From the NCBI GenBank assembly GCA_015066805.1, contig SVNP01000021.1:1-42667 (forward strand): a DNA stretch of 42,667 nucleotides, in the 5' to 3' direction. Source of the stretch: Ruminococcus sp. GTDB taxonomy: Bacteria; Bacillota; Clostridia; Oscillospirales; Ruminococcaceae. Shown here one piece after another: positions 32,124 through 42,344 of the stretch (the stretch's first letter is position 1; every line of letters begins with the position of its first letter). A model generated the notes under the pieces. It worked only from the letters and a program-made list of their open reading frames with translations, had not been told where the DNA came from and searched no databases. Position numbers and translations under genes: made by a program.

Positions 32124-32294
32124 TTGCACATTCACAGAGATAAACAAACGGCAGAAAACACAGCAACGATCCGCTTTTCTCTTATACTGAATGATGCGTT
32201 TATTGGCTTTTTGTATCGGCATGTAGGGCCGCACTTTATCAGATGCAAAAAACACGGGTATTCCAAAACGAATACCCGTGTTTTTTTACTGTAA
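32124..32294 (+). CDS. Possible 56-residue small protein in the orphan unit
   Basis: An open frame starts at TTG 32124, eight bases after AAAGGGGG. It would encode a basic peptide rich in His, Arg, Lys and Thr, with a central hydrophobic patch (FSLILNDAFIGFLY). I know no family. The last third reads through the terminator hairpin and overlaps the end of hydF on the other strand, which argues against a conserved protein. The transcript may instead be a non-coding RNA. Confidence 0.22.
   Translation: MHIHRDKQTAENTATIRFSLILNDAFIGFLYRHVGPHFIRCKKHGYSKTNTRVFLL
32247..32287. terminator. Bidirectional terminator between the orphan unit and hydF
   Basis: CACGGGTATTC (32253-32263) pairs perfectly with GAATACCCGTG (32270-32280). 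A-runs and T-runs flank it on both sides, so it can end transcripts from both strands. The hydF stop codon touches its edge. Confidence 0.92.
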
Positions 32295-33470
32295 ACAGCC
32301 TCCCATAAGAGAACGCTGCAAGATGCCGTGGCATTCCGCAAGGGCAATGCCGTAATTGGTGAAGGGTACCCCCTGCGAAAGAGCGGTACGCATCCGCCAG
32401 AGCATTTCACGCTCGGTACGCATACAGCCGCCGCAGTGCACCACCAGTGCGTAGGGGGAAAGGTCTTCGGGGAAATGTCCGCCGGATGTGAAGGAAAAAT
32501 CAAACTGCTTTCCGGTAAGCTGCATCAGCATTTTGGGCAGCTTGACCGTGCCGATATCATTGCATTGGCGATGATGGGTACAGCCCTCTGCAATGAGCAG
32601 CTTTGCGCCGTTGGGGAGGTTTTTCAGCGACTCCACGCCCTTGACAGCCGTTTCCAGAAAGCCCTTGTACCTTGCCATCAGAATGGAAAAAGAAGTCAGG
32701 GGCGTATCCTTGGGGAGCATTTGCTCCACGGCACCGAATACCTGACTGTCCGTAATGACCATGCGGGGCGGTTTTTTCAGGTTGGAAAGAACAGCCGTAA
32801 GCTGTTCGGGCTGGGTGACAATGGCAATGCCGCCCATATCAATGATCTCCCGCAGGGTCTGCTGCTGCGGCAGGATCAGCCTGCCTTTGGGTGCTGCTTC
32901 ATCTATGGGGGTGACCAGAATGACCGTATCCTCGGGGGCAAGCAGATCTGCCACGATCTGTCTTTGGGGCTGCAAACGGCTCCCCATGGCTCCGATGCGT
33001 TCCTTCAAGGCTTCAATGCCCTCACCGGTTTTTGCGCTCACCCACAGGATATTTTCCTCCTGTGGATGATTGCTGCAAAGGTCGGCTTTGTTTTTTACAA
33101 TGAGATAGGGGATATTCTGCCCCGTAAACAGTTGTATGAGGGTCTGCTCCGTTTCGCCCATAGGGCGTGTGGCATCGGTGACCAAGATCGCAAGATCGGT
33201 GCGGTACAGGGCGAGGCGTGTTTTTTCGATGCGCTGCTGCCCCAGTGTGCCTTCATCATCAAAGCCTGCGGTATCGGTAATGACCACCGACCCCAAAGGC
33301 AGCAGCTCCATGCTTTTGCTGACCGCATCGGTAGTGGTGCCTGCCACATCGGAGACGATGGAAAACGGCTGACCCGTTACTGCATTGACAATGCTGGATT
33401 TGCCTGCGTTGCGTACACCGAAAAATCCGATGTGAATGCGTTCGGCGGCAGGGGTTTCATTCAGACTCAT
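32286..33470 (-). CDS. hydF: [FeFe]-hydrogenase H-cluster maturation GTPase HydF
   Basis: A 394-residue scaffold GTPase on which the diiron subcluster of [FeFe]-hydrogenase is assembled before transfer to the apo-enzyme. The N-terminal GTPase domain has FGVRNAGKSS (G1, ~residues 16-25), a TTTD G2, DTAGFDD (G3) and VKNKADL (G4). The C-terminal cluster-binding domain keeps the family ligands: Cys-Thr-His at ~297-299 and the late His-Cys-Gly-Gly-Cys at ~345-349. GCAAGGAGG precedes the ATG. It is last in a hydE-hydG-hydF operon. No hydrogenase structural gene is within the window. Confidence 0.97.
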   Translation of the reverse strand: MSLNETPAAERIHIGFFGVRNAGKSSIVNAVTGQPFSIVSDVAGTTTDAVSKSMELLPLGSVVITDTAGFDDEGTLGQQRIEKTRLALYRTDLAILVTDATRPMGETEQTLIQLFTGQNIPYLIVKNKADLCSNHPQEENILWVSAKTGEGIEALKERIGAMGSRLQPQRQIVADLLAPEDTVILVTPIDEAAPKGRLILPQQQTLREIIDMGGIAIVTQPEQLTAVLSNLKKPPRMVITDSQVFGAVEQMLPKDTPLTSFSILMARYKGFLETAVKGVESLKNLPNGAKLLIAEGCTHHRQCNDIGTVKLPKMLMQLTGKQFDFSFTSGGHFPEDLSPYALVVHCGGCMRTEREMLWRMRTALSQGVPFTNYGIALAECHGILQRSLMGGCLQ

Positions 33471-33497: not shown

Positions 33498-34913
33498 TCA
33501 GAAGCGGAAATCACGCTTACCCTCTGCAATGGAGCCGAGGTGGGTCGTACAGAGCTCTCTTGCCTTATCATTGGGAATATGACTGAGCTGTTCGGCGATG
33601 ACCTTTTCACCGATGGCACGGGTCTCGGGAGAGGCGTAATCCATCAGGTATTCCTTCAGCGTCAGCAGCGCATTGGGGTGGCAGCAATTCTGGATCTGGC
33701 CGCTTTTGCAAAGGGACATAAAGCGGTCTCCGGTTCTGCCCTCACGGTAGCAGGCGGTGCAGAAGGAAGGAATATAGCCCAGCTCCATGAGCCAGCGGAC
33801 AACTTCATCCAGGGTGCGGCTGTCGCTGACATCAAACTGCTCGGATTCATGGGGACGAACCTCCTCGCAGTAGCCGCCTACGCTGGTACGGGATGCACCG
33901 CTGATCTGGGAAACACCCAGCGGCAGAACCTTTTCACGCACCTCCTGGCTTTCTCTGGTGCTGATGATCATGCCGGTATAGGGTACGCAGACACGGATCA
34001 GGGCGCAGAGCTTTGCAAAGATCTCATCACTGATGCCGTTATCGAATACAGTGGGGTCGATATCGCTGGCACGCTTGATACGGGGTACACTGATGGTATG
34101 GGGGCCTACGCCGTGTACCGCCTCCAGATGCTCTGCGTGCATAAGAAGGGCGGCAAACTCGTACTTATACAGTTCCAGGCCGAACAGCACGCCCAGACCC
34201 ACATCATCAATACCGCCCTCCATGGCACGATCCATGGCCTCGGTATGGTAGGCATAGTTATGCTTGGGCCCTGTGGGGTGCAGCTTTTCGTAGCTTTCCT
34301 TGTGGTAGGTCTCCTGAAACAGAATATAGGTACCGATGCCTGCTTCCTTCAGCTTGCGGTAGTTTTCCACGGTGGTGGCGGCAATGTTGACATTTACACG
34401 GCGGATGGCACCGTTTTTATGCTGGATGCTGTAAATGGTCTTGATGCTTTCCAGAATATACTCAATGGGATTGTTCACAGGGTCCTCACCTGCTTCAATG
34501 GCAAGACGCTTGTGACCCATATCCTGCAGGGCGATGACCTCCTTGCGGATCTGCTCCTGGGTCAGCTTGATACGGGGGATCTCCTTGTTCTGGTGGTGGT
34601 AGGGGCAGTAAACGCAGCCGTTGACGCAATAGTTGGAGAGATACAGGGGGGCGAACATCACGATACGGGTGCCGTAATAGTCGATCTTGATCTGCCGTGC
34701 CAGCTCATACAGCTCCTCGATCTTCTCCTGATTTTCGCAAGCCAGCAGTACGGATGCCTCACGGTGATCCAGACCCTTTCTCAGCTTTGCCTTGGCAATG
34801 ATCCGGTCAATCAGCTCCAGATTATCCTTGTTTTCCTCGGCATACTGCAGGGTAGCCAGCACTTCCTCGTGATTGATAAACTCTTCGGCTTTCAGGGATT
34901 TGGGATTATACAT
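33498..34913 (-). CDS. hydG: [FeFe]-hydrogenase maturase HydG (radical SAM tyrosine lyase)
   Basis: A 471-residue radical SAM enzyme that splits tyrosine into p-cresol and dehydroglycine, giving the CO and cyanide ligands of the H-cluster. The radical SAM cluster motif C-x3-C-x2-C is in NYCVNGCVYCPYHHQN (~residues 93-108). The second, C-terminal cluster motif is FCTACYREGRTGDRFM (~390-405), which distinguishes HydG from ThiH. The following LCKSGQIQNCCHPNALLTL is also typical. The length matches the family. GGAAGG precedes the ATG. It lies between hydE and hydF with gaps of 21 and 27 bases. Confidence 0.97.
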   Translation of the reverse strand: MYNPKSLKAEEFINHEEVLATLQYAEENKDNLELIDRIIAKAKLRKGLDHREASVLLACENQEKIEELYELARQIKIDYYGTRIVMFAPLYLSNYCVNGCVYCPYHHQNKEIPRIKLTQEQIRKEVIALQDMGHKRLAIEAGEDPVNNPIEYILESIKTIYSIQHKNGAIRRVNVNIAATTVENYRKLKEAGIGTYILFQETYHKESYEKLHPTGPKHNYAYHTEAMDRAMEGGIDDVGLGVLFGLELYKYEFAALLMHAEHLEAVHGVGPHTISVPRIKRASDIDPTVFDNGISDEIFAKLCALIRVCVPYTGMIISTRESQEVREKVLPLGVSQISGASRTSVGGYCEEVRPHESEQFDVSDSRTLDEVVRWLMELGYIPSFCTACYREGRTGDRFMSLCKSGQIQNCCHPNALLTLKEYLMDYASPETRAIGEKVIAEQLSHIPNDKARELCTTHLGSIAEGKRDFRF

Positions 34914-34934
34914 AATGATACCTTCCTTTCTGTT

Positions 34935-35984
34935 TCAGACGCAAAAAGCGGGTGCGTCTCCCCGTTGATGGACAATTTCATAGCCGATGGCCGCAAATCG
35001 TCTGCTGCGTTCCTCCAGCAGATCTACCGTATCCTTTGCGGCGGTATCCTTGCCGTCATACAGCAGATAGCTGCTGCGGACAGCACAGGGGGTCAGGTTC
35101 GGCATAATGACGTTGGCACCTGCCAGTACGCCCTGCTCCAGACCATCGGGCAGCAAGGTGCCCAGTGCGGTGGTAGAGGGCAGCAGCACCTGCGGCAGAA
35201 TCAGCCGCACAATGGAAAGCAGCCGCAGGGTCAGATCGGCGGAGCCTGCGGGATAAGCACGGAAGGGCGTATCATGGTGGGGCATAAATGGCCCGATGCC
35301 TACCATTTCCGGCTGAAACTGCTCAATGAACCGCAGATCTGCAATGAGATGGGCGATGGTCTGGTGCGGGGAGCCTACCATCATGCCGCAGCCGGTCTGG
35401 TAGCCCAGTGCCTTCAGGCTTTGCAGGCATTTTATGCGGTGTGCAAGGGTCATTTCCGCAGGATGCAGCAGGCTGTAATGGTCGGGGTCGGCTGTTTCAT
35501 GCCGCAGCAGATAGCGGTCTGCGCCTGCCTCACGGAGCAGTGCATAGCTTTCATGACTGCGTTCTCCCAGAGAAAGGGTGACAGCACAGTGGGGTGCGAT
35601 CTCCTTGATGCGGCGGATCATGGGCACCAGACGTGCATCGGTGAAGAAGCCATCCTCACCGCCTTGCAGCACAAAGGTCTGAAAACCCAGCTCTGTACCT
35701 GCTTTGCAGCAGGCAAGCACATCGTCTTCCGTCAGGCGGTAACGCTGTACATTGGCATTTCCGCGGCGGATGCCGCAGTAAAGGCAGTTGTTTTTGCAGT
35801 AATTGGTCAGTTCGATCAATCCACGGAGATAAACCTTGTTGCCGAACTGTTTTTTTTGTACTTCCACAGCGGCACGGCGCAGCGCCGAAAGGGTCTGGGC
35901 ATCCTGTGTGGTCAGCAGTATTTCGTATTGGGCATCGGTCAGATGACGTTCTGCCCGCAGTTGATCGACAAGCTGTGCGGACAC
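34935..35984 (-). CDS. hydE: [FeFe]-hydrogenase maturase HydE (radical SAM)
   Basis: A 349-residue radical SAM TIM-barrel enzyme that processes the HydG product on the way to the diiron subcluster. The motif NYCKNNCLYCGIRRGN holds the C-x3-C-x2-C cluster ligands (~residues 63-78). TFVLQGGEDGFF, LSLGERSHESYALLREAGADRYLLRHETAD and GIGPFMPHHDTPF are HydE landmarks. The start is GTG 35984, six bases after a strong AAAGGAGG. An upstream in-frame start at 36035 would begin inside the leader terminator and is rejected. It is the first gene of hydEGF, preceded by a ~220-base structured leader. Confidence 0.96.
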   Translation of the reverse strand: MSAQLVDQLRAERHLTDAQYEILLTTQDAQTLSALRRAAVEVQKKQFGNKVYLRGLIELTNYCKNNCLYCGIRRGNANVQRYRLTEDDVLACCKAGTELGFQTFVLQGGEDGFFTDARLVPMIRRIKEIAPHCAVTLSLGERSHESYALLREAGADRYLLRHETADPDHYSLLHPAEMTLAHRIKCLQSLKALGYQTGCGMMVGSPHQTIAHLIADLRFIEQFQPEMVGIGPFMPHHDTPFRAYPAGSADLTLRLLSIVRLILPQVLLPSTTALGTLLPDGLEQGVLAGANVIMPNLTPCAVRSSYLLYDGKDTAAKDTVDLLEERSRRFAAIGYEIVHQRGDAPAFCV

Positions 35985-35992
35985 AGACTTCC

Positions 35993-36026
35993 TCCTTTCG
36001 TAAAACAAAAGCCATGCCCGAAAGGA
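35993..36026 (-). promoter_or_regulatory. Alternative hairpin masking the hydE ribosome site
   Basis: The 8 bases TCCTTTCG in the terminator hairpin (36019-36026 region, minus strand) are perfectly complementary to CGAAAGGA of the hydE ribosome site (35993-36000). The two hairpins share bases and cannot form together, which suggests a regulatory switch. Confidence 0.55.
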
Positions 36027-36032
36027 CATGGC
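36002..36032 (-). terminator. Intrinsic terminator (attenuator) in the hydE leader
   Basis: On the minus strand, GCCATGTCC pairs with GGGCATGGC (9 bp with one wobble, loop TTTC) and is followed by TTTTGTTTT. It lies between the promoter and the hydE ribosome site, so it must be bypassed for hyd expression. Confidence 0.75.
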
Positions 36033-36203
36033 CATCTTGTATCAGCAGATAAGCATAACAAAGATTCCCTGTACTTTCGCATCAAAAAATTTTTCTGCGT
36101 CAGATAAGGTTTTCGGTAACAATGCAATTGAGATCCGTGTATCGGGATGCTGCCTTGCCGCAGGAAAAAAACCGACGGTGCGGGAGCGATCCGTTACAAT
36201 ACC
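36033..36203 (-). promoter_or_regulatory. Structured 5' leader of hydEGF, no known riboswitch recognised
   Basis: About 170 bases upstream of the attenuator. A hairpin at 36078-36100 (CGCA/TGCG closing an A/T-rich stem) is visible, along with T7 and A6 runs and two copies of ACGGATC. I could not match it to cobalamin, SAM, FMN, Moco, THF, ZTP, fluoride or c-di-GMP classes by eye. Confidence 0.4.
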
Positions 36204-36232
36204 ATTATACGATATTACACGGGAAAAGTCAA
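36204..36232 (-). promoter_or_regulatory. Promoter of hydEGF
   Basis: On the minus strand, TTGACT (36227-36232), 17-bp spacer, TATAAT (36204-36209). It lies just downstream of the phosphodiesterase stop codon. Confidence 0.85.
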
Positions 36233-36258: not shown

Positions 36259-36828
36259 TTATAATACATCGGGCACGGCATCCTTCAGATCCCAGCGATG
36301 GTAGACTTCACCCTTCAGATCCTTCCATTCCAGAACGGTGTGGGTCAGGGTCATATAGCCGTGTGCAGAGCCTTCTTTGGGGATAGAAACCGAACCGGGA
36401 TTGCAGTAAAAGCAGCCATCGCCGCAGGGGATACACTTGGGTACATGGGTGTGTCCGTGCAGCAGGATATCTCCTTTATGCAGGGGCGGAAGCTGCTCCG
36501 TATGAAAATGATGCCCGTGGGTGGCAAAGATCATACGGTTTTCTACGGTCAGCAAGGCATATTCCGCCATAACGGGAAATGCCAGAACCATCTGATCCAC
36601 CTCCGTATCACAGTTGCCCCGCACACAAAGAATGCTTTCCTTGCGGGTATTCAGCATGGCAATGACTTCCTTTGGGGCGTAGTCACGAGGCAGATCATTG
36701 CGGGGGCCGTGATACAGCAGATCACCCAGCAGCAGAAAACGGTCTGCCTGTTCTGTTTCAAATGCCTGCATCAGTTTTTGAGTGTAGTATGCCGATCCGT
36801 GCAGATCGGATGCGATGAGCCATTTCAT
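36259..36828 (-). CDS. YfcE-type metallophosphoesterase (phosphodiesterase)
   Basis: A 189-residue calcineurin-like phosphoesterase of the YfcE/MJ0936 group. Metal-binding motifs appear in order: DLHG (residues 8-11), GDLLYHGPRND (~35-45), GNCD (~72-75), THGHHF (~105) and GHTHVP (~125-130), then YCNPGSVSIP. Such enzymes hydrolyse phosphodiester bonds with two metal ions, usually manganese; the natural substrate is unknown. The start at 36828 follows AAAGGAG and begins right before the first motif; the longer upstream frame is spurious. It is divergent from the two-component system and shares -35 promoter bases with it. Confidence 0.93.
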   Translation of the reverse strand: MKWLIASDLHGSAYYTQKLMQAFETEQADRFLLLGDLLYHGPRNDLPRDYAPKEVIAMLNTRKESILCVRGNCDTEVDQMVLAFPVMAEYALLTVENRMIFATHGHHFHTEQLPPLHKGDILLHGHTHVPKCIPCGDGCFYCNPGSVSIPKEGSAHGYMTLTHTVLEWKDLKGEVYHRWDLKDAVPDVL

Positions 36829-36940: not shown

Positions 36941-37546
36941 ATGGCTAGGATCCTGATTCTGGACGATGATGCTCTGCTGAATAAAAATATCGCATTGGCT
37001 TTGACCAATGTGGGCTACGAGGTGATATGTGCCGCAACTATCCGTGAGGCGGAGCAGCTTTATGCACGGGCAGATCTGCTGCTGCTGGATGTGATGCTGC
37101 CCGACGGCAGCGGTGTGGAGCTTTGCCGTTTGATCCGAAGCTGCAGCGATGTACCGGTGATTTTTCTGACATCCTGTGATGATGAAGCCGATATCGTTTA
37201 CGGTCTGGAGCAGGGCGGTGATGATTACATTACTAAGCCCTTCCGTCTGGCAGAGCTGCTTTCCCGCATCAAGGCGAATTTGCGGCGGCGTACTGTGGTG
37301 CTGCCTCTTTCCGATCTTACGGCGGCAGAACAGAAGCTGCTGGAATACCTGATGATGAATAAGGGACGGTTTGTTTCCAGAGAGCAGCTTCTTGGATATT
37401 TATGGGATTCTAGGGGCGAATTTGTCAACGATAATACACTGTCTGTGCATATCAGCCGCCTGCGTGAAAAGCTGGAGCAGGCAGGGGATGCAGGCAGGAT
37501 CGTAACCAAAAGGGGTGTGGGCTATCAATGGATACCGCAGATCTGA
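36941..37546 (+). CDS. OmpR-family response regulator with shortened output domain
   Basis: A 201-residue regulator. The receiver has the acidic pocket D8-D10, phosphoacceptor D50 (LLLDVMLPDGSG), the Thr in FLTSCDDE and Lys in ITKPF. The winged helix contains LTAAEQKLLEYLMMNKGRFVSREQLLGYLW and VNDNTLSVHISRLREKLE ... IVTKRGVGYQW. Between receiver and winged helix only about ten residues remain. The small beta sheet that normally opens the OmpR-type DNA-binding domain is largely missing, so the protein is ~25 residues shorter than usual. AAGGAGG lies 12 bases before the ATG. It overlaps the kinase gene by 19 bases. It probably regulates the ABC genes at 38733, as in BceR-like or VirR-like modules. 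Confidence 0.92.
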   Translation: MARILILDDDALLNKNIALALTNVGYEVICAATIREAEQLYARADLLLLDVMLPDGSGVELCRLIRSCSDVPVIFLTSCDDEADIVYGLEQGGDDYITKPFRLAELLSRIKANLRRRTVVLPLSDLTAAEQKLLEYLMMNKGRFVSREQLLGYLWDSRGEFVNDNTLSVHISRLREKLEQAGDAGRIVTKRGVGYQWIPQI

Positions 37547-38649
37547 TCCTGTTTAATCGGACGCCTTTGCGGCTGCTGGCAGGTGCTATGGCTCTGGTGC
37601 TGACAGGTCTTCTGGTCGGGGCGGTAAGCTGCGGCTATTGTGCCGATCAGCTTATGGAGACTGCATATGCCGGCGGTGCCGCCAATGATTTCCCTCTGCG
37701 GCTGCTGGAGGGCTGGGAACGGCTTCGGCTGCAGAGCTTTTGGGGGATCTTTCTGTTGTTTGCTCTGCCTGCTGTCATCATGGCAGTGGTGGGTATTCTT
37801 TCCGTGATGCAGGAATACCGCCGTCTGGAACGGCTGCACAGTCAGTGCCTGCAGCTTCGGGACGGTATCCCTACGGAGATCACCGATGCCTATGCGGAAT
37901 GTGACAGCGTAGGCCGTGCGGCAGAGGGTGTGCACTGCCTGGGCAGACAGATGCACCATATGACAGTGGCGCTGGCACAGGAAAAACGTTCGCTGGCGGA
38001 ATTTCTCACAGATCTGTCCCACCAGTTGAAAACCGTGCTGGCTGTGATCCGTCTGAACAGCGATCTGCTGGCGGAACCCGAGCTGTTGCAGGCGCATCAG
38101 CGGACACAGCTTGCAGAGGAGATCGCAGGGCAGTTGGATCATATGGAGATCCTGCTGCGGACTTCCCTGAAGCTGGCAAAGTTGGAGGCAGGTGCGGTGG
38201 AATATCGGATGCAGGAGGCTTCCCTGGCAAAAACCTGCCGTGCTGCGGTAACAGAGCTTTCTCCGCTGCTGCGGCAAAAGGGCATTACTGCTGCTGTTGC
38301 AGATACGGATGCGCTGCTGTACCATGACGGTGTCTGGCTGCGGGAGGCTTTGCAGAATATTCTGAAGAATGCCATTGACCATGCCGAATGCACGCAATTG
38401 AAGCTGACTGTGACGGATACGCCTGTGTATGCTTCCGTGACAGTTTGGGATAACGGCAAGGGCATCCCGAGAGAGGAGATACCGAAACTGTTTGAACGCT
38501 TTGGCAAACGCTCCAACAGCAGTGATATGCAAAGTGTGGGCATCGGTCTGGCAATTGCCCAGAAAATCGTGGCAAGCCATGGGGGGGAGATCACCGTTTT
38601 TTCTTCTCCCGAGGAGGGGACACGGTTTGTACTGACTTTTTTGCGATAA
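37528..38649 (+). CDS. Sensor histidine kinase
   Basis: A 373-residue membrane kinase with two TM helices (~15-38 and ~72-93) around a short external loop of ~35 residues. A HAMP-like/coiled segment is followed by the phosphoacceptor His165 in LTDLSHQLKT. The ATPase domain shows the N box ILKNAIDHAE, G1 DNGKGIP, F box FERFGKRS and G2 GIGLAIA. The small external loop suggests sensing within the membrane or through a transporter, as in BceS-type kinases that work with FtsX-like permeases. The permease two genes on supports this. The start overlaps the regulator's end, so expression is coupled. Confidence 0.93.
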   Translation: MDTADLILFNRTPLRLLAGAMALVLTGLLVGAVSCGYCADQLMETAYAGGAANDFPLRLLEGWERLRLQSFWGIFLLFALPAVIMAVVGILSVMQEYRRLERLHSQCLQLRDGIPTEITDAYAECDSVGRAAEGVHCLGRQMHHMTVALAQEKRSLAEFLTDLSHQLKTVLAVIRLNSDLLAEPELLQAHQRTQLAEEIAGQLDHMEILLRTSLKLAKLEAGAVEYRMQEASLAKTCRAAVTELSPLLRQKGITAAVADTDALLYHDGVWLREALQNILKNAIDHAECTQLKLTVTDTPVYASVTVWDNGKGIPREEIPKLFERFGKRSNSSDMQSVGIGLAIAQKIVASHGGEITVFSSPEEGTRFVLTFLR

Positions 38650-38667
38650 TTCCGAAAAAAACGGTTT

Positions 38668-38701
38668 TTGTCACTTTGGCGTAAGATTTCTGTGTTACAA
38701 T
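38668..38701 (+). promoter_or_regulatory. Candidate regulated promoter for the ABC genes
   Basis: TACAAT at 38696-38701 is a fair -10, but no -35 hexamer stands at 16-18 bases; TTGTCA at 38668-38673 is 22 bases away. A defective -35 is typical of promoters needing a bound response regulator. The binding site is not defined. Confidence 0.45.
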
Positions 38702-38732
38702 ACAAGTATCAAAACCAAAGGAGGCTTTTGTT

Positions 38733-39428
38733 ATGAGCGAACAGCAAAACGATCGTGTGATCTTACAGGCGGATACATTGGTGAAAACCTACGGAAAAGG
38801 CGAAGAAATGATCTATGCACTGGATCATGTGAGCTTTACGGTCAACCGCGGAGAATTTGTGGCGGTGACCGGCGAAAGCGGCGGCGGCAAGACCACCTTG
38901 CTGAATGTTCTGGGTACACTGGATCTGCCGGATTCCGGCAGGGTGATCTTTGACGGCACGGATCTCAGCGGCCGCAGCGATGACTACCTTTCCACCTATC
39001 GGCGCAGAAATATCGGGTTTATTTTCCAGCACTATAATCTGATCCCCGTACTGACGGTGGAGGAGAATATCGTTCTGCCCCTGAATCTGGACAATACCCC
39101 CTGTGACAAGGCATATCTGGATGAGCTGCTGGAGCTGGTGGGACTGACTGCCAAGCGCAAGCATTATCCCCATGAGCTTTCCGGCGGACAGCAGCAGCGT
39201 GTGGCATTTGCCCGTGCATTGATCCACAAGCCTGCTTTGGTGCTGGCCGATGAGCCTACGGGTAATTTGGACAGCAAAAACAGCCGTGAGATCATTTCGG
39301 TGCTGAAAAATTCCATTGCCAAGTACAATCAGACCCTGATTCTGATCACCCATGACGGCAATATTGCCGCACAGGCGGATCGTGTGTTTAAAATGCATGA
39401 TGGCGTTATGACGGAAGTTGGGGTGTGA
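38733..39428 (+). CDS. ABC transporter ATP-binding protein (MacB/BceA type)
   Basis: A 231-residue ATPase. Walker [10 protein letters not shown] is at residues 47-55, the Q loop in [16 protein letters not shown], the signature [15 protein letters not shown] (~148-162), Walker [14 protein letters not shown] and the H-loop ITHDG. The VAxARAL and TGNLDS wording is typical of the MacB/LolD/BceA group, which energises FtsX-type permeases. These machines act on peptides, antibiotics or lipoproteins without a classical transport pore. AAAGGAGG precedes the ATG and the permease starts three bases after its stop. Confidence 0.96.
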
Positions 39429-39431
39429 GAT

Positions 39432-42344
39432 ATGAAGCATCTGATTTCCTTATCACTGAAGTACATACGGCGGCAAAAGCTGCGTACCTCGCTGACAGTC
39501 ATGTGCATTGTGCTTGCAGTGTTTATTCTGAATGTATTTGCGGTTGCGGGCAGCAGCCTGCTGGCTTCTTTGCGGGAAACAGAGATCCTGAATAACGGTG
39601 CATGGGAAGTGGATCTGGGTGGTTTTGTTACCAAGCCGGAGACTGCAAACGGTCGCACCACAGAAGAAATGGAGCAGCTCGTGCGGGAGCACGCAGCGAT
39701 TTCCGATTATTTGTTTACCCGCAGCGGATATTTACGCACCGGTGTTACTATGGAACGAAATCCCGCCAATGCCATCGCTTTTATGGAGCTGCAGGTGGAT
39801 GACTGTGCGCCGCAGCGTATGACGGAGCTGCAGTTTTATCAGGCAGAGGGCAACGGCACGCTGACCGGCTCTGCGGGTTCTTCCATAGCCTCTTTTGCAA
39901 CAACGCTTAAGGGGAACGAGGTGTTCCTGCCGGCATCTGTGCAGTCACAGGGCTGCAAGGTGGGAGATACCGTTATGCTGCGTGGCAGCATTGTGTATGC
40001 TGTGCTGGATGAATCTGTGCCCCAGGTGCAGGAGATCCTGAAGATCATGGAAGAAAAGAACGCTGACCCCGATGAGCATTATTACATGATCAATGACGGT
40101 ACCCGGCGCGGCACCGAGCCGCCGGAAGAGATCAGAGGAGCCGGCAGACCCATCCATCGGACCAACCTGATGACACTGATGACGACGCTGCTGGGCGATT
40201 ATACCTTGGAGGATATCGACTTCCGGGAAACCCTGCGGAGCGAGGTGGTAGAGCTGCCTGTGACCATTGCGGGCTTTTATGATGCCGATCCCTACTCCAT
40301 GCACCGTCAGACAAGTGTTCTGATGTCCCGGGAATGCATGGATTTTGCCGAGGCAATGTACATGGCTGCGGCACCTCTGACAGAACAGTGGCAGGAGGAT
40401 TATCTGACTGCTGATGATGAAACGGCAGGATTTGGCGGTACAGAGATGCTGAGCTATGATACAAATGCCGGCTGGTTTGCCTGTATCTCCGAGAAAATTC
40501 CCTTTTCCGATGGTCTGACCATGCTGCTGACCTCCGCAGGCGCAAAAGACCCGGAGCTGGTGGAGTATTACTTCTCTGCCGGCAGTCTGAACGGCACCCT
40601 GCTGATGACAAAGTTCCGCTACATGAATGCTGCGACGGATATCATGCTGCTGTTTGCCAGCTTTTCATTGCTGCTGATCCTGATCTGGGCATTCTCCCGT
40701 TTTGTCATTGACAATGCCTTTGAGATCTCCGTGCAGGAACGCAGTGTGCAGTTTGCTGCCCTGCGGCTGATGGGTGCTTCCAAGCGGCAGTTGCTGGCTG
40801 TGGTATTCACCGAAGCAACCGTGTATACGCTGATTTGTGTACCTTTGGGCCTTGGTGCCGCACTGGGGCTTACCGCTGTGATTCTGCAGGTGATCCATAA
40901 TGCCGGTCTTAGCACGGTCATTTTTGAGGTGCAGCCGGTGCTGCAGTGTGTCACGGTATTTCTTGCGGTAATTGCGATTTATATTTCTGCGTATACCTCC
41001 GCCATTTATGCTTCCCGCAAGCTGACTTTGACCGAGGCCATGCAGTTCGGTAAGCCGCAGATGCCCAAGAAGAACAAGAATGTGCACTCCAAGCTGAATG
41101 CATCTGCCAGGGGCTTTATTTACCGCTATGGCTGGAAGAACATCATGCGTACCAAGCGGCGGTTCCTCATCAGCAGCATTGCCCTGGTACTGGGCGTAGG
41201 GCTTTTTACCTTCTGCGGCTTTGTGGTGCTCAGTATGGCGGGCGAGTTTATCTATACAATGAATACAGAAAACGATGACTGGTATAAGATGCCGGACTTT
41301 TACATTGAAGGCAGCGGTGCCGCAGCGTATGATGCGCTGCACAGCTACCTGAAGGATAATTCCGATTTTGAATCCTATGTAATCACAGCAGGTGATTGGT
41401 CTGATATGGAAGACGCTTGTGCCGAGCAACTGGATGCACTGCCTATGATCGAAGCGGTGGGCCTTACTTGGGTGCCTGTCATTGATCAGGCTGCCTATGA
41501 ACGGGATCTGGCGGACCTGACCGGTATTTCCTATAAGGCATGGGTGGATTCCAAACAAGCATTCCTCACCCAGTCGCCCTATCTGCACGGCAACATGGAT
41601 GTAAACGGCGATCCTTTGGAGCCTCTGCCTGCAAAATATGCACCTGCTGCAGAGGTGTTCGGTGATCTGGAGCCTGTTGTGACCATGATGGAGGGCAAAG
41701 AGTCTGTTCCCGTTATGGGCGTTATGGTGCTGCCGGAAGCTGTGTACAGCAGCTATATGAGATGGTCGGGCTGTGGTCTGCTGCTGCCTGTGGAGAATTA
41801 TTATCAGTACTTTAATGATATGATCGTCTCTGCGGAAGTAAGGGCAAATCCGGCGGTAGGCTATGAAGATCTGATGCACTCTCTGACAGATATGGCACAT
41901 GAAAACGGTCTGGAGATTTATGACAGCTATGCGGGCGGAACAGGTCTCATCAAGATCCTCATCGCCGCGTTGATCGCATTGGTGATCTTTTTGGGCAGCA
42001 TCTGGCTGGCAGGTGTGCTTTCCATGATCAATACCCTGCATACCAATGTGCTCAACCGCCGCAATGAACTGCGTATGCTGCGTGCAGTGGGCTGCAGCAC
42101 CAAGCAGATGAAGAAAATGCTGGTGATGGAGGGCATGCTGTTCTCCTCGGTTTCCACGGCAATCGGCATTGGCCTGGGTGCGCTGCTTGTTTATCTCGCC
42201 GATGGTGGTGCGGAAGGTGCCGACACCATTGGGATTGGTATCTATGTTGTGCTGTTTTCGGCAGCGATGTTTGCGATCAATCTGCTGATCTCCGCACTGT
42301 GCGCCAAACCCGGTCTGAAAAGCCTGAAAAACGAAGTGCGATGA
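39432..42344 (+). CDS. Large FtsX-type ABC transporter permease
   Basis: A 970-residue membrane protein. An N-terminal TM helix (~18-42, with the LRTSLTVMCIVLAVFILNVFAVAG start typical of MacB-like permeases) precedes a ~330-residue external domain. A first FtsX core of three TM helices follows at ~405-540, including RLMGASKRQLLAVVFTEA. A second helix, NIMRTKRRFLISSIALVLGVGLF, begins at ~575, then a second external domain (~620-830) and a final FtsX core with LRMLRAVGCSTKQMKKMLVMEG (~880). Two complete FtsX units make one chain, so a single permease may serve with the ATPase dimer. The substrate is unknown; the two-component context suggests peptide detection or resistance. Confidence 0.92.
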   Translation: MKHLISLSLKYIRRQKLRTSLTVMCIVLAVFILNVFAVAGSSLLASLRETEILNNGAWEVDLGGFVTKPETANGRTTEEMEQLVREHAAISDYLFTRSGYLRTGVTMERNPANAIAFMELQVDDCAPQRMTELQFYQAEGNGTLTGSAGSSIASFATTLKGNEVFLPASVQSQGCKVGDTVMLRGSIVYAVLDESVPQVQEILKIMEEKNADPDEHYYMINDGTRRGTEPPEEIRGAGRPIHRTNLMTLMTTLLGDYTLEDIDFRETLRSEVVELPVTIAGFYDADPYSMHRQTSVLMSRECMDFAEAMYMAAAPLTEQWQEDYLTADDETAGFGGTEMLSYDTNAGWFACISEKIPFSDGLTMLLTSAGAKDPELVEYYFSAGSLNGTLLMTKFRYMNAATDIMLLFASFSLLLILIWAFSRFVIDNAFEISVQERSVQFAALRLMGASKRQLLAVVFTEATVYTLICVPLGLGAALGLTAVILQVIHNAGLSTVIFEVQPVLQCVTVFLAVIAIYISAYTSAIYASRKLTLTEAMQFGKPQMPKKNKNVHSKLNASARGFIYRYGWKNIMRTKRRFLISSIALVLGVGLFTFCGFVVLSMAGEFIYTMNTENDDWYKMPDFYIEGSGAAAYDALHSYLKDNSDFESYVITAGDWSDMEDACAEQLDALPMIEAVGLTWVPVIDQAAYERDLADLTGISYKAWVDSKQAFLTQSPYLHGNMDVNGDPLEPLPAKYAPAAEVFGDLEPVVTMMEGKESVPVMGVMVLPEAVYSSYMRWSGCGLLLPVENYYQYFNDMIVSAEVRANPAVGYEDLMHSLTDMAHENGLEIYDSYAGGTGLIKILIAALIALVIFLGSIWLAGVLSMINTLHTNVLNRRNELRMLRAVGCSTKQMKKMLVMEGMLFSSVSTAIGIGLGALLVYLADGGAEGADTIGIGIYVVLFSAAMFAINLLISALCAKPGLKSLKNEVR

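Follow-up and report, generated by a model that had tools for sequence, protein, structure and literature searches.

The leader between the promoter and hydE of Ruminococcus sp. (contig SVNP01000021.1; minus strand of the 42,667-nucleotide stretch analysed here as a whole, termed the window) is real, and the conserved partner of its terminator is an upstream hairpin at 36103-36074 that was absent from a preliminary description of this DNA. We consider it probable, at roughly 0.7, that the leader represents an uncatalogued class of transcription attenuator controlling [FeFe]-hydrogenase maturation. Three computed results carry this reading: the hairpin with its covariation, a locus-specific complementarity between this element and the terminator, and the association of the element with particular genes.

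The hydE leader

A sigma-70-type promoter-like sequence, TTGACT-17-TATAAT, is predicted at 36204..36232 (minus strand; 11 of 12 matches in a consensus scan), in agreement with the near-consensus promoter described previously. An intrinsic terminator hairpin followed by TTTGTTTT lies at 36010..36033 (minus strand; -16.7 kcal/mol in the window); the leader had been said to end in a 9-bp hairpin, which we recovered, though with 10 pairs by our scoring and a loop of 4 nt. The operon also stood up to profile searches, which identified on the minus strand, in this order, hydE (34935..35984, GTG start at 35984; TIGR03956, 508.5 bits, cut-off 254.6), hydG (33498..34913; TIGR03955, 924.3 bits) and hydF (32286..33470; TIGR03918, 527.7 bits), the latter two likewise above the curated cut-offs. 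Counted from this GTG, the HydE profile match begins at residue 5. An ATG at 36035, in the terminator hairpin and in frame with hydE, could as a start make automatic annotation yield a 366-aa HydE.

Only 25 nt separate the hairpin from the GTG in the window, and because this gap is too short for another promoter we infer that hydE is transcribed through the terminator. The terminator therefore lies between promoter and gene with a later promoter impossible, as in an attenuator built on an intrinsic terminator. An extremely unlikely alternative is that the hairpin is the unregulated terminator of a phosphoesterase gene on the same strand, whose end at 36259 is 226 bases ahead of the hairpin. 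Apart from the short gap before hydE, this would have to accommodate the near-consensus promoter in between, the recurrence of the arrangement behind different upstream genes and the locus-specific complementarity to the element documented below. A shuffle test of fold stability was mixed, with z -2.48 (3/200) for the part from promoter to terminator and z -0.76 (41/200) for a longer stretch. A cysteine-rich leader peptide reading across the terminator, in the window and in locus L008, was considered by eye and dropped.

A symmetric hairpin conserved above the terminator

HydE was searched in 30 genomes of the genus (25 with a match at E<=1e-80), in 396 genomes of the family (98 at E<=1e-118) and in a species-genome collection, from which the best 80 of 457 relatives were taken. 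Among the eight genus loci whose HydE is closest to that of the window (L007-L014; 55-69% identity), all eight have a terminator-like hairpin shortly before hydE, and seven carry the motif CUGAY-NNN...N'N'N'-RAAAG above it, with the 3' end of the motif 25-57 nt before the terminator in these seven loci and the window. In the eighth, L009, a related element stands before hydG. The leader is thus conserved upstream of hydE in relatives, in a form other than the one described earlier. When the leader DNA itself was searched in the 30 genus genomes, only its promoter part matched besides the window, in two genomes (L005 and L006). Element and terminator also precede hydF (L090, L105, L125) and a gene of the TM1266 family (L097, L117, L124 and others).

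In the window the putative sensor is a 30-nt hairpin at 36074..36103 (minus strand), CU-GA-CGCA-GA-[AAAAUUUUUU]-GA-UGCG-AA-AG, with a model match of 40.5 bits. Its consensus, YUGA-N4-RAAR...YUGA-N'4-RAAR, combines a stem that varies and covaries with invariant unpaired purines flanking it. Since YUGA-N3/4-RAAR can be read on each strand, the duplex comes close to two-fold symmetry, which is clearest in the form CUGA-CGGG-RAAG...CUGA-CCCR-AAAG.

In a first alignment of 19 elements, which was selected partly by pairing (16 collected by a script requiring a 4-bp stem, 3 added by eye), the eight pairs were standard in 96.7% of cells and showed 25 double changes. None of 500 shuffles, which ignore the tree, reached the paired share, the double changes or the covariation score, and two weaker measures were reached by 94/500 (number of pairs with a double change) and 4/500. 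Shifting the partner by 1-3 columns reduced pairing to 28-53%, and RNAalifold proposed the same eight pairs from the same alignment. Fifty-five trimmed elements were then available, of which 51 entered alignment A4 and 40 alignment A5; near-duplicates and 3-bp-stem variants were omitted, a coding-sequence repeat (L180) was removed beforehand and L121, whose element carries a long insertion, entered neither. With 40 sequences, 96.3% of cells were paired with 58 double changes (0/500 shuffles, again ignoring the tree), the number of pairs with a double change being uninformative at this size (415/500).

A check by pattern alone, on loci fetched without any RNA model but with a pattern written after the motif had been seen, gave 50 distinct matches with 4-nt stems, of which 25 were fully paired, against 1.0 expected, and 12 had three of the four positions paired; for 3-nt stems, 7/27 were fully paired against 1.4 expected. 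Covariation, RNAalifold and this check agree on a conserved structured domain such as would serve as the receptor of a riboswitch. An outer helix around the element, convincing by eye, was rejected: its longest pairing was 4.75 within and 4.61 between loci (3194/20000 permutations), with a weak hint in duplex energy (659/20000).

L011 and L013 seem by eye to have a second, half-element-like hairpin, CUCCG-RAAG...CUGA-CGGAG, above the main one and about 160-240 nt upstream of hydE. The hydE-hydG junction of the window (34914-34940), CTGAAACAGAAAGGAAGG, is possibly a remnant of a hydG-type element; neither element model matched it.

A predicted antiterminator between element and terminator

Taking the final 7 nt of the element and as many as 10 following bases as its 3' strand, we found this strand to be complementary to the 5' arm and loop of the terminator of the same locus, which lies 18-81 nt downstream of the element. 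This was examined in 63 of 79 distinct elements, leaving out those with no terminator, with AAAGGA directly behind or with a terminator >90 nt away, as well as L121 and L206. The longest perfect stretch averaged 5.56 within against 4.41 between loci and the duplex energy -11.3 against -8.3, each with 0/20000 permutations, which ignore the tree. Two control stretches, compared by their means, gave 3.44 within and 3.46 between loci (17 nt before the element) and 3.49 and 3.31 (5' strand of the element). Among 43 non-redundant leaders the values were 5.56 and 4.27 (0/20000), and 4.0 and 3.35 (0/20000) when only the 9 nt after AAAG were used.

We also folded each nascent transcript only up to the terminator loop. 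An antiterminator, counted when the minimum-energy fold held >=4 such pairs, was predicted in 40/43 non-redundant leaders (the three lacking it being L008, L178 and L191), with a mean of 8.7 expected pairs; swapping terminators among loci (20 rounds) lowered these values to 34% and 3.2. In the nascent fold of the window the element is open. Its 3' strand and the bases that follow, CGAAAG-U-ACA-GG (36068..36079, minus strand), are paired there with CC-A-UGU-C-CUUUCG (36019..36031, minus strand), which covers the 5' arm of the terminator together with its loop. These computations predict an alternative antiterminator that is exclusive with the terminator. For the full-length RNA of the window, the predicted energies were -65.1 kcal/mol with the terminator, -60.9 with a hairpin masking the ribosome site and -59.0 with the antiterminator; as the complete RNA prefers the terminator state over the antiterminator, the switch must be kinetic, assuming a co-transcriptional choice. 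In L133 the complement of the terminator (7 nt) is the 5' strand, UACUGAC; by eye, L124 and L128 follow this pattern, the latter with a G-U pair.

We propose that, during transcription of the leader, CGAAAG on the 3' side of the hairpin and the bases just behind it would pair with the oncoming terminator, at its 5' arm and loop; the antiterminator so formed would allow hydEGF to be transcribed, and free RNA would favour this ON state. A factor that binds the YUGA/RAAR hairpin would keep it closed and make its 3' strand unavailable, so that the terminator could fold and transcription end (OFF). We infer this direction, and with it the role of the hairpin as a binding site for some sensor, from the mutual exclusion of element and antiterminator, because of which binding to the element should terminate transcription.

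The ribosome site

The preliminary description had instead taken the terminator hairpin and a hairpin masking the ribosome site as the alternative states. In the window its observation is exact: TCCTTTCG (36026-36019), within the terminator hairpin, is perfectly complementary over 8 bp to CGAAAGGA (36000-35993), the first eight bases of the hydE ribosome site CGAAAGGAGG (35991..36000, minus strand), and the resulting masking hairpin (-10.8 kcal/mol) and the terminator hairpin exclude each other. Among the 55 of 63 leaders with a recognisable ribosome site, however, the complement was as long between loci as within them (3.98 within, 3.91 between; permutation 0.30), a length of 8 bp occurred in the window only and the next longest was 7 bp. 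We therefore rejected masking as a general mechanism; lacking conservation over these leaders, the masking hairpin looks particular to the window genome. The CUUUCG that the two pairings share is moreover accounted for by the upstream element, with which it can pair, and we regard masking as very unlikely to be the switch of this leader.

A different link to the ribosome site was found before hydG. Fourteen of 83 elements abut it, with AAAGGA directly behind the element in 14/14 and the hydG start 14-24 nt behind, and three genomes of the order (G655, G712, G728) have both the terminator and the ribosome-site form. In such genomes the version of the hairpin set against the hydG ribosome site would act on translation.

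Distribution and gene context

Sorted by the gene that follows, with the homologous HydE and HydG told apart, the 83 elements precede TM1266 (35), NifH-like genes (15), hydG (14), hydE (11, including L139), hydF (4) and others (4: L201, L202, L206, L098), a tally biased by the many loci that were fetched through HydE or by model matches. We also searched 395 whole genomes of the order with model R2 and inspected all of the 45 hits, found in 42 genomes; five were elements used to build the model (G000, G042, G094, G152, G231). Thirty-six lie directly before TM1266 (23), hydG (9), hydE (3, window included) or hydF (1). L202 precedes an acetyltransferase-like gene followed by hydG; L201, L315 and, by its likeness to L315, L314 precede solute-binding-protein-like genes with a terminator; L310 and L313 were judged doubtful; and L206, L306 and L312, located in or at the end of coding sequence, were rejected as false. 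As 15 candidates were scored in each genome, out of several hundred, and a known case (G024) escaped the search, 42/395 is a lower bound.

Scoring more candidates within the order gave matches in 5/40 genomes, four of them with the element before TM1266, hydG or the acetyltransferase-hydG pair; the element of G929 was missed even so and was found by direct scan. Outside the class, scored in this way, 3/40 chosen TM1266-positive genomes matched at E<=0.05, of which one looks real (L256), lying behind TM1266 and before a terminator and a further gene. Forty upstream regions of TM1266, all from genomes of the order with no hit in the R2 search, gave 11 matches at E<=1 and 7 at E<=0.05, so that many TM1266 leaders have no recognisable element. 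Of TM1266 loci outside the class, the 30 with the highest scores yielded two matches at E<=0.01, L242 and L226, in each of which the element precedes TM1266 and has a terminator.

Within the genus, a first model that held no element of the NifH-like gene context matched 28/30 genomes at E<=1 and 24 at E<=0.05, one of the latter (G023, L180) being the coding repeat. In 15/30 genomes the element lies just behind TM1266 and before the NifH-like gene. At L304 (G002:C24:303400-318000), TM1266 and the element are followed by a NifH-like gene, nitrogenase-component-1-like genes and, further on, another NifH-like gene accompanied by additional component-1-like genes. The NifH-like gene scores below the cut-offs of the CfbC and NifH models, and we therefore call it only nitrogenase-like.

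At three TM1266 loci with the element (L188, L214 and L216) the next gene is a FecCD/BtuC-like permease, as scanned for L216 and by likeness for the others, and that of L201 is NMT1/SsuA-like. Together with L315, this occurrence of the element or TM1266 beside uptake genes hints at a wider regulon.

The putative sensor: TM1266 or a metabolite

The preliminary description had called the leader a riboswitch or a protein-controlled attenuator. Our analysis supports an attenuator on the [FeFe]-hydrogenase maturase operon, and we treat the two kinds of sensor as near-equal options. Our tentative first guess, weakly favoured and somewhat short of an even chance, is a protein of the TM1266 family (TIGR03959, a putative hydrogenase regulator), the most frequent first gene behind the element; otherwise the sensor would be a metabolite or an Fe-S-linked signal. 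TM1266 is encoded in 29/30 genomes of the genus and in 40/42 hit genomes against 204/395 genomes of the order, a comparison confounded by shared operons, and in the two hit genomes without it (G212, G542) the hits are false. TM1266 is thus present where the element is. Thermotoga maritima carries the family, which also occurs in genomes where the element was not found. Its only relative found in the PDB is 2NZC, deposited as a hypothetical protein, and a literature search returned no paper on the action of TM1266 or TIGR03959.

The same choice between terminator and antiterminator could be made without a protein, if the hairpin bound a small molecule; SAM, tyrosine, an iron-CO/CN intermediate, Fe-S species or a redox cofactor would be candidates. 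We regard such a metabolite riboswitch as possible, at odds below even. It would suit the invariant unpaired purines around a variable stem and the existence of two output forms, terminator and ribosome site. It would also suit the window genome, where TM1266 stands alone on another contig (C9:4175-4399; L217, G000:C9) and no element model matched in 7.9 kb around it, so that here the element goes with hydE. Less in keeping with it are the conserved core, a single short hairpin with no junction, the presence of TM1266 in all hit genomes but those with false hits, and the same motif on both strands, which would suit a dimeric protein. The single TM1266 copy at L217 lies by eye between sigma-factor-like and phosphoenolpyruvate carboxykinase-like genes, as it does at L218 and L219.

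More speculatively, and with some doubt, TM1266 proteins, whose annotation goes no further than putative iron-only hydrogenase regulators, may be RNA-binding attenuation proteins, dimers of which would clamp the YUGA-N4-RAAR hairpin in a manner set by the assembly state of iron-sulphur clusters or the H-cluster. If so, they would govern an RNA regulon of anaerobic Bacillota that takes in [FeFe]-hydrogenase maturases, nitrogenase-like operons and some uptake systems, by termination before hydE, hydF or TM1266 and by ribosome blocking at hydG. TM1266 as the sensor would define a new family of RNA regulators, and a metabolite as the sensor a new riboswitch class.

Relation to known systems

The preliminary description recognised no described class for the leader, and at the gathering score of Rfam release 15 no family matched the window, L007-L014 or 20 further loci; a permissive search gave sub-threshold matches only, two in 341 bases and two in 8 loci. 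Known riboswitches and T-boxes were ruled out on this ground.

RAT antiterminators are hairpins bound by protein dimers of the LicT/SacY type. The element resembles them as a ~30-nt hairpin with two internal loops that controls a downstream intrinsic terminator, the dimer binding being a property of the RAT. Unlike a RAT, it lies well upstream of the terminator (the 18-81 nt given above) and is predicted to promote termination when closed; its genes and its consensus differ too. With terminating riboswitches it shares a conserved element exclusive with an antiterminator and feedback on a biosynthetic operon, but it is smaller than most aptamers and matched by no Rfam family. TM1266 (2NZC) is related to the element by often being the first gene behind it and differs in being a protein family, whose binding to RNA is hypothesised here.

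A 2017 survey reportedly described 224 candidate RNAs. Our literature search found no published description of RNA-level control of [FeFe]-hydrogenase maturation, although an earlier one is possible. Hydrogenase, hydE, hydF and hydG have no mention in the main text of three RNA-discovery papers (PMC2864571, PMC6429828, PMC8632094). Tungsten-cofactor (Wco) riboswitch candidates are reported upstream of some hydrogenase genes (PMC9481103). Like the element, they are structured RNAs upstream of hydrogen-metabolism genes; unlike it, they form a separate motif, and the Rfam Moco/Wco family did not match the element loci.

What the element adds to these systems is a cis-element with an explicit ON/OFF model that extends across many genera of one anaerobe order, a candidate trans-factor with a relative, 2NZC, whose solved structure is unexplained, and a link between hydrogenase assembly and a nitrogenase-like operon. 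Upstream of the leader region, the plus strand of the window (36941-42344) appears by eye to encode a response regulator, a sensor kinase-like protein, an ABC ATPase and a large ABC permease-like protein.
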